A DNA stretch of 43,973 nucleotides from Fidelibacterota bacterium (GTDB lineage: Bacteria > Fidelibacterota > Marinisomatia > Marinisomatales > TCS55): the NCBI GenBank assembly GCA_029936965.1, contig JAPYRG010000018.1, positions 1-43,973 on the forward strand, given 5' to 3'. The position numbers were made by a program, and so were the translations under genes. Numbering within the stretch: the first letter of the stretch is position 1; the number at the start of each line of letters is the position of its first letter. The notes beneath the pieces were generated by a model, which saw only the letters and a list, made by a program, of their open reading frames with translations, searched no databases and was not told the origin of the DNA. Shown here piece after piece: positions 6,274 to 7,755 of the stretch.

Positions 6274-7755
6274 ATGAATTTACCCATATGGAAACCTTTT
6301 GCTAATGAATGGAGTACTTTCTTTCTATTCTTAATAACGATATTTTTATTAATAATTATTAGTGAATCCGCACGTTCATATCTTCACTGGAAACCTGAAT
6401 CTAGTCGCAAACTAGTACATGTAATTGTGGGAATATTGGTCTCGATTTGTCCATTTATTTTTAAATCAAAATTTCCTCCTATAACTCTAGCTGTTATTTT
6501 TATCATTATCAATGCAGTTGCTTTAAAAAATAAAACTTTTAAAGGAATACATTCTACTGATAGAGTTAGCTATGGTACAGTATATTTTCCATTCGCATTC
6601 CTAATACTAGCTATATTTTGGTGGGAGAAACCAATTACACTGGTATTATCTATTTTGATAATGACACTTTCTGATACAATTGCAGCAATTATTGGCGAAC
6701 GAACTACTCATCCAAGGCAATTTAAATTATGGGTGGATGTTAAATCTATTGAGGGTTGTATAGGTATGTTCTTATCAAGTTTCATGATTATTTATATAGG
6801 AACCGACTTATTTGCGTGGCTTTTTGAGGCTGCATTCTTTATTCCTCTACCAATTTTAATTGGAGTAAGCGGATTTGTTGCAATGCTAGTAACTTTATCA
6901 GAGTCTAATAGCTCTCGTGGATCTGATAATTTTTCCGTACCTATTATTGCCGCATTAAGCTATGATTTATATCTTATAAATTATACTCATGGGCATCTAG
7001 ATAGTTTATTAATATGGAGCGTATTATCTGGAATCGCTTTCTATCTTGCCTTCAAATATAAATCCTTAAGTAAAAATGGAGTAATTGCAGCATATATTAT
7101 GGGTATTATAATATTTGGTGCTGGTGGATTAAAGTGGGTTACACCAATAGTTACCTTTTTTATCCTATCATCAATTATTTCAAAAATATCTAAATCGGAT
7201 AATCAAATACATAAAGGATCAAAACGAGACATTATCCAAGTGTTAGCAAATGGCGCTATTGCAACAATTATTTCAATAATTAATTTTTATGAACCAAACG
7301 AAAATCTTTATGTTATATATCTTGCAGTCATCGCAGCGGCAACTGCTGATACTTGGGCAAGTGAAATTGGTTCATTTAGTCATACTGATCCTTTTCATGT
7401 AATTAAATTTACAAGAGTACCAAAAGGTGCTTCTGGCGCTATATCATTTCTTGGTACGATTGGATCCGTATTAGGAGCTACAACAATTGCCATTGTTGGA
7501 TTGATTTGGAATGTTTCATTACCATTAATTTATTTAATAGTAATTACTGGAAGCATAGGTAGCCTTGTTGACTCATTTATTGGAGGATCTATCCAAGCAA
7601 ATTTTCAATGTTTAAAGTGTAATAATATCACTGAGAAAAGAACCCATTGCAATTCATCCTCATTGCATCAATCAGGAATCTATTTTATTGATAATGATAT
7701 GGTAAACTTTCTTAATACTGTTTCTGCGATATTCATATTGATTATCCTAAAATAA
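6274..7755 (+). CDS. Membrane fusion protein: phytol/dolichol-kinase-like half plus DUF92 (VTE6-like) half
   Basis: A 493-aa polytopic membrane protein made of two enzyme-like halves. Residues 1-250 resemble the VTE5/SEC59 CTP-dependent lipid-alcohol kinases: SSRKLVHVIVG (43-53), SDTIAAIIGER (133-143) with a following DVKSIEGCIGMF, and SRGSDNFSVP (214-223). Residues 255-493 are a complete DUF92 domain, as in plant VTE6 and Slr/Sll homologues: ATADTWASEIGS (357-368), PKGASGAISFLGTIGS (383-398), GSLVDSFIGG (429-438), then a CxxC...HC cysteine/histidine group (446-459) and DNDMVN. In plants VTE5 phosphorylates phytol and VTE6 phosphorylates phytyl phosphate, so the fusion could turn an isoprenoid alcohol into its diphosphate. 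A stop codon just upstream fixes the start at 6274. The substrate here is unknown. Confidence 0.85.
   Translation: MNLPIWKPFANEWSTFFLFLITIFLLIIISESARSYLHWKPESSRKLVHVIVGILVSICPFIFKSKFPPITLAVIFIIINAVALKNKTFKGIHSTDRVSYGTVYFPFAFLILAIFWWEKPITLVLSILIMTLSDTIAAIIGERTTHPRQFKLWVDVKSIEGCIGMFLSSFMIIYIGTDLFAWLFEAAFFIPLPILIGVSGFVAMLVTLSESNSSRGSDNFSVPIIAALSYDLYLINYTHGHLDSLLIWSVLSGIAFYLAFKYKSLSKNGVIAAYIMGIIIFGAGGLKWVTPIVTFFILSSIISKISKSDNQIHKGSKRDIIQVLANGAIATIISIINFYEPNENLYVIYLAVIAAATADTWASEIGSFSHTDPFHVIKFTRVPKGASGAISFLGTIGSVLGATTIAIVGLIWNVSLPLIYLIVITGSIGSLVDSFIGGSIQANFQCLKCNNITEKRTHCNSSSLHQSGIYFIDNDMVNFLNTVSAIFILIILK

Follow-up and report, generated by a model that had tools for sequence, protein, structure and literature searches.

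A Sec59-like domain and DUF92 on a single chain

Positions 6274-7755 (+) of the window, by which we mean the whole 43,973-nucleotide stretch of DNA that was analysed, form a single open frame of 493 codons, and the encoded protein is best explained as an integral membrane protein in which two CTP-transferase-type domains, distant relatives of each other, follow one another. Its N-terminal half (residues about 14-238; 6313..6987 (+)) is a predicted CTP-dependent kinase domain of the SEC59/VTE5 type and its C-terminal half (residues 252-484; 7027..7725 (+)) is a VTE6-like domain of the DUF92/COG1836 family. We propose, with a probability of roughly two in three, that this fused prenol kinase/prenyl-phosphate kinase candidate is a CTP-dependent two-step kinase that converts a prenol to a prenyl phosphate and then to a prenyl diphosphate. 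The initial annotation had read the gene as a fusion of these two halves, and this is borne out by the exact limits of the open frame and by the DUF92 match described below. An AlphaFold model of the whole protein has a pLDDT of 90.8 and a pTM of 0.90, with a pLDDT of 90.4 for the N-terminal half; a fold search with the whole-protein model gave uninformative E-values.

The arrangement has a precedent in archaea. A Sec59-like domain of the same family precedes DUF92 in several members of arCOG02245 (DUF92), among them Mbar_A3310 of Methanosarcina barkeri, and these Sec59-DUF92 proteins have been proposed to act as kinases in isoprenoid biosynthesis (Makarova et al. 2015, PMC5898192). Going by its published description, Mbar_A3310 consists of a Sec59-like N-terminal domain and a DUF92/COG1836 C-terminal domain, both belonging to the cytidylyltransferase family; the protein of the window has the same order of Sec59-like domain before DUF92 on one chain, but is bacterial whereas Mbar_A3310 is archaeal. 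The fusion is real, but it is not novel, as the same domain pair has been on record for archaea since 2015; the window protein is a bacterial member of the known Sec59-DUF92 arrangement. A literature search, thin on subscription journals, found no paper on the fused protein in Marinimicrobia.

The N-terminal half resembles SEC59/VTE5-type kinases

A Pfam search with the window protein found zero matches in the N-terminal half (residues about 14-238), and the N-terminal half matched CTP_transf_1 (PF01148) in 2 of 42 homologues, with a best E-value of 4.5e-7. Using hhalign, the profile of this half could be aligned to a stand-alone family of SEC59-like proteins of ~195 amino acids with an E-value of 3.6e-17 over 174 columns. 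This family, itself uncharacterised, matches PF01148 weakly (best E-value 0.02) and shares with the N-terminal half the R-K-x-x-H, D, K..EG and E..DN motifs. In the window protein these take the form of an R-K-x-x-H near the N-terminus, a DT acidic motif, K..EG and E..G-x-DN-x-x-x-P, which we take to be the marks of SEC59/VTE5/DGK1-type CTP-dependent kinases (COG0170). The first of them is RKLVH (residues 45-49; 6406..6420 (+)), in which R45 and H49 are invariant and also present in the stand-alone SEC59-like proteins, followed by the first acidic motif, SDTIAAIIGER (residues 133-143; 6670..6702 (+)), with D134 and G141 invariant, and by the second acidic motif, ESNSSRGSDNFSVP (residues 210-223; 6901..6942 (+)), with E210, S213, G216, D218 and N219 invariant. 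The R-K-x-x-H, acidic DT and E..GxDN motifs are likewise found in SEC59, FOLK and DGK1, the characterised members of which are CTP-dependent; unlike the window protein, these are single-domain kinases that form monophosphates only. The assignment of the N-terminal half to the SEC59/VTE5 type thus appears to be supported by family motifs together with an uncharacterised sister family.

When the model of the N-terminal half was compared with the PDB using Foldseek, the four best matches were chains of the CDP-DAG synthase CdsA (PDB identifiers 4q2e and 4q2g), with probabilities of 0.99-1.00, E-values of 0.011-0.026 and a TM score of about 0.37, and beyond these no match exceeded a probability of 0.30; among PDB relatives found by sequence there was a weak CdsA match alone (E-value 0.36). 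CdsA differs from the N-terminal half in its signature and in catalysing nucleotidyl transfer rather than a kinase reaction. The initial annotation had named a match to CDP-diglyceride synthetase as one outcome that would speak against its reading and, despite the shared fold and the CdsA structures at the top of the PDB matches, it is extremely improbable that the N-terminal half is such an enzyme. The CdsA signature (S-x-x-K-R...K-D...H-G-G-x-x-D-R-x-D) is absent from this half, which has R-K-x-x-H; the true CdsA is a separate gene in the same genome (G000:C37) with a full signature of the HGGVLDRFDS type, and this protein matches the N-half profile with an E-value of 0.003, as against 3.6e-17 for the SEC59-type family. 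We rejected the CdsA assignment on these grounds. The modelled fold of the N-terminal half is thus of the CTP-transferase type, combined with the sequence marks of SEC59/VTE5 kinases.

Of 149 genomes sampled from the phylum, 134 encode the stand-alone SEC59-like protein, with the copy of the source genome at G000:C32:24776-25345 and further copies at loci L106-L114. Its gene adjoins a PASTA-like gene and, in several genomes, also a gene resembling that for ribulose-phosphate epimerase (Rpe-like), as assigned by eye.

The DUF92 half and the conservation of both halves

The C-terminal half was matched by Pfam PF01940 with 202.6 bits (cut-off 27.5) and an E-value of 9e-60 over positions 3-249 of the 251 in the profile, a match also obtained at the level of the whole genome. 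Of the two domains expected in the initial annotation, Pfam thus recognised DUF92 and left the N-terminal half unmatched. NCBIfam TIGR00297 scored 114.1 bits against the same half, below its cut-off of 205.85, and because TIGR00297 is a narrower hypothetical equivalog, this excludes membership of that subgroup only. In the DUF92 half, ATADTWASEIG (residues 356-366; 7339..7371 (+)) is the first of the acidic motifs, with D359, T360, E364 and G366 invariant. A putative metal-binding loop, CLKCNNITEKRTHC (residues 446-459; 7609..7650 (+)), includes C446, C449, H458 and C459, which are conserved in at least 90% of homologues only and are lost in one of them (L029). The prenyl-phosphate kinase chemistry of this half would be of the VTE6 type, by extrapolation from plant work. 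COG1836 has been tied to phytol-phosphate metabolism by an earlier comparison of plants and prokaryotes (PMC3223725).

All motifs quoted in the initial annotation, viz., RKLVH (45-49), SDTIAAIIGER (133-143), SDNFSVP (217-223), PKGASGAISFLGT and CLKC...HC (446-459), are present in the translation. Twelve positions of the N-terminal half (R45, H49, G101, T102, D134, K157, G161, E210, S213, G216, D218 and N219) and thirteen of the C-terminal half (D359, T360, E364, G385, S387, G388, D433, S434, Q441, E454, N474, V477 and N478) are identical in 42/42 phylum-wide homologues and, because of this invariance of key residues, the motifs are not due to chance. Full-length orthologues in many independent assemblies rule out chance motifs and misassembly alike. 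In comparison with the homologue L003, dN/dS is about 0.08 for the N-terminal half and about 0.21 for the C-terminal half, and close pairs have values well below 1 in both; purifying selection acts on each of them. Comparison of the profiles of the two halves with each other brings their DT acidic motifs into alignment, with E-values of 0.0073 and 2.2e-4 and probabilities of 5% and 45% in the two directions, which is only suggestive of a relationship between them. A published HHpred search (PMC5898192) gave 97.6% for the link between DUF92 and the cytidylyltransferase family.

Distribution and ancestry of the fusion

We surveyed 149 genomes spread over the phylum Candidatus Neomarinimicrobiota (Marinimicrobia), to which the source genome and the closest named relatives belong (metagenome-assembled genomes, 94% and 82% identity). 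DUF92 is present above the family cut-off in 108 of these genomes, and in about 97 of the 108 it lies in a single frame 427 to 590 codons long, as part of a fused protein. DUF92 occurs by itself in six genomes (five members of family f19, and G164), and in the other five the gene is disrupted by contig ends or stops. In a tree of the DUF92 half, midpoint-rooted and with weakly supported deep branches, the f19 clade and G164 fall inside the fused proteins, G164 grouping with the fused protein of G108 at a support of 100/100. Since the DUF92-only proteins nest among the fused ones, the N-terminal half was probably lost in these lineages rather than never gained. The fusion, as judged from this tree, is ancestral to the phylum, and we rejected a recent or lineage-specific fusion because of the position of the f19 proteins. 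The presence of DUF92 without an attached N-terminal half in f19 means that the joining of the two halves is not obligatory. Neither the ORFs nor a six-frame HMM search revealed a split N-terminal half within about 3 kb of the f19 DUF92 genes. We also considered the SEC59-like gene of f19 as a split-off N-terminal half and rejected it, as it is the phylum-wide stand-alone gene. G164 is a doubtful case: upstream of its gene the contig continues for only ~210 bp, which makes loss, frameshift and assembly error indistinguishable there.

A contig scan for relatives in other bacterial phyla gave close kin only, and a plasmid search gave two partial matches. One is a DUF92 gene of Thermomicrobium roseum (L102:8001-8687; NC_011961.1, 548044-548730), unannotated in the record and containing one in-frame stop, which may have been omitted from the PLSDB table as a pseudogene. 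The other is a SEC59-like protein of 439 amino acids on the Roseinatronobacter plasmid NZ_CP121116.1, 30% identical to the N-terminal half over ~188 residues, the gene for which lies in a run (L103:523-8507) with genes for a UbiA prenyltransferase, a PEP/pyruvate-binding protein, a DUF3419 protein and an AMP-binding enzyme.

Proposed function

In the proposed two-step reaction, a prenyl alcohol would first be phosphorylated at the expense of CTP by the N-terminal SEC59/VTE5-type domain, and the VTE6-type DUF92 domain would add the second phosphate, yielding a prenyl diphosphate that could re-enter isoprenoid metabolism in the side chains of menaquinone, ether lipids or heme O. Both the use of CTP and the two-step course are inferred from characterised relatives: the phytol kinase VTE5, the farnesol kinase FOLK and the phytyl-phosphate kinase VTE6 have a strong preference for CTP (PMC9782597). 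VTE5 and VTE6 represent the two domain families of the window protein and act one after the other, but they are separate proteins with phytol as the substrate, in a plant and cyanobacterial setting with chlorophyll turnover. Two successive phosphorylations, as put forward in the initial annotation, are a reasonable reading of the domain pair. Salvage of polyprenols by two kinases is a recognised route, although hardly any of its genes have been identified beyond plants and cyanobacteria (PMC9782597), and the literature that we found reports no activity for any fused SEC59-DUF92 protein.

A different reading, unlikely though worth weighing, is that the N-terminal half resembles DGK1 or SEC59 in phosphorylating diacylglycerol or a polyprenol (C55-type) and that the DUF92 half is regulatory or otherwise not a kinase, so that no diphosphate is made. 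DGK1 of yeast, a member of this family, is a kinase dependent on CTP, and the near-universal occurrence of the stand-alone SEC59-like relative indicates that the fold has more than one role in the phylum; in archaea, the one conserved neighbour of DUF92 genes is uppS (PMC5898192), which would fit long-chain polyprenols. The stand-alone protein is at the same time a separate candidate already available in the same genome for single-step tasks, and the pairing of the domains in archaea and Marinimicrobia, together with the succession of VTE5 and VTE6 in plants, argues for coupled steps.

A fuller version of the two-step proposal, in which the kinase possibly channels its intermediate, serves isoprenoid salvage or recycling generally in Marinimicrobia, is shared with methanogens and is unrelated to phytol from chlorophyll, is tentative, at somewhat less than even odds. 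If true, this would be the first single-protein enzyme leading from a prenol to a prenyl diphosphate, as far as the literature found shows. Kept across an uncultured ocean phylum, the fused protein would offer a compact enzyme in which both steps, the range of substrates accepted and any channelling could be studied, and it would aid the annotation of DUF92, which is still a "domain of unknown function" in databases.

Genomic context and the source of the prenol

The gene is present as one copy in the source genome (2.14 Mb, 50 contigs) and stands alone in the window, with a divergent gene for a PPK2-type polyphosphate kinase on one side and a small convergent gene of unknown function on the other flank, followed by hutI and hutU. 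Across lineages it has no conserved operon partner and no conserved neighbour that ties it to an isoprenoid pathway or to phytol; synteny is local only, with HutI/HutU in the family of the window and other genes elsewhere. With neighbours that differ in this way, the check proposed in the initial annotation, for prenyl-diphosphate-using genes near the relatives' copies, gave no support for such a link. Elsewhere in the genome, prenyl diphosphates can be used by a heme O synthase, a MenA-like protein, a UbiA protein resembling DGGGP synthase and PcrB/GGGPS, and made de novo by two polyprenyl synthases.

The genes for GGGPS/PcrB (G000:C9:66204-66902), the DGGGP-synthase-like UbiA (G000:C25:157868-158542; 200.8 bits, below the cut-off of 296) and a geranylgeranyl reductase (G000:C28:37604-38545) form a candidate archaeal-type ether-lipid set in a Marinimicrobia genome. 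The main text of a report on archaeal lipids in FCB bacteria does not name Marinimicrobia (PMC7852524).

Two special cases of the two-step kinase differ in where the prenol would come from. Salvage of algal or cyanobacterial phytol at sea, with the resulting phytyl diphosphate built into quinones or lipids, is improbable as the specific role: the domain pair equals VTE5 plus VTE6 and the genome has a MenA-like prenyltransferase, but no phytol-related gene was found nearby, the fusion is spread phylum-wide and occurs in methanogens, which have no chlorophyll to recycle, and with a geranylgeranyl reductase in the genome reduced prenyl chains could be home-made. Recycling of isoprenoid tails from the bacterium's own archaeal-type ether lipids has a slightly smaller chance still. 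The set of three genes described above and the ability of FCB bacteria to make archaeal lipids (PMC7852524) speak for it, but genus g6, in the family of the window, keeps the fused kinase and lacks GGGPS and a geranylgeranyl reductase above the cut-off, while families f16 and f17 have GGGPS and no kinase. GGGPS is present in 108 of the 149 genomes, and the association of its presence with that of the fused kinase (Fisher p = 0.014 for all genomes) disappears without the reduced f15 lineage (p = 1.0); the distribution of the kinase does not track archaeal-type ether-lipid genes once f15 is set aside. Given the lack of conserved neighbours, the loss of the GGGPS link without f15 and the absence of GGGPS from g6, phytol is one possibility among others, and for the two-step kinase a prenol recycled from isoprenoids made in the cell is no less likely a substrate than phytol, and as likely as one taken up from outside. 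The initial annotation had taken the fusion as a sign of salvage; being ancestral to the phylum and published for archaea, it is not unusual, and salvage from outside the cell need not follow from it.

No clear pattern linked the kinase to MenA among 30 genomes. The MenA-like UbiA prenyltransferase domain of the source genome (residues 113-420) is itself fused to a PAS sensor domain (residues 7-103; G000:C2:40584-41342, locus L117:1078-2349), and a number of related genomes likewise have long MenA frames (426-517 codons), which suggests a conserved PAS-MenA fusion.
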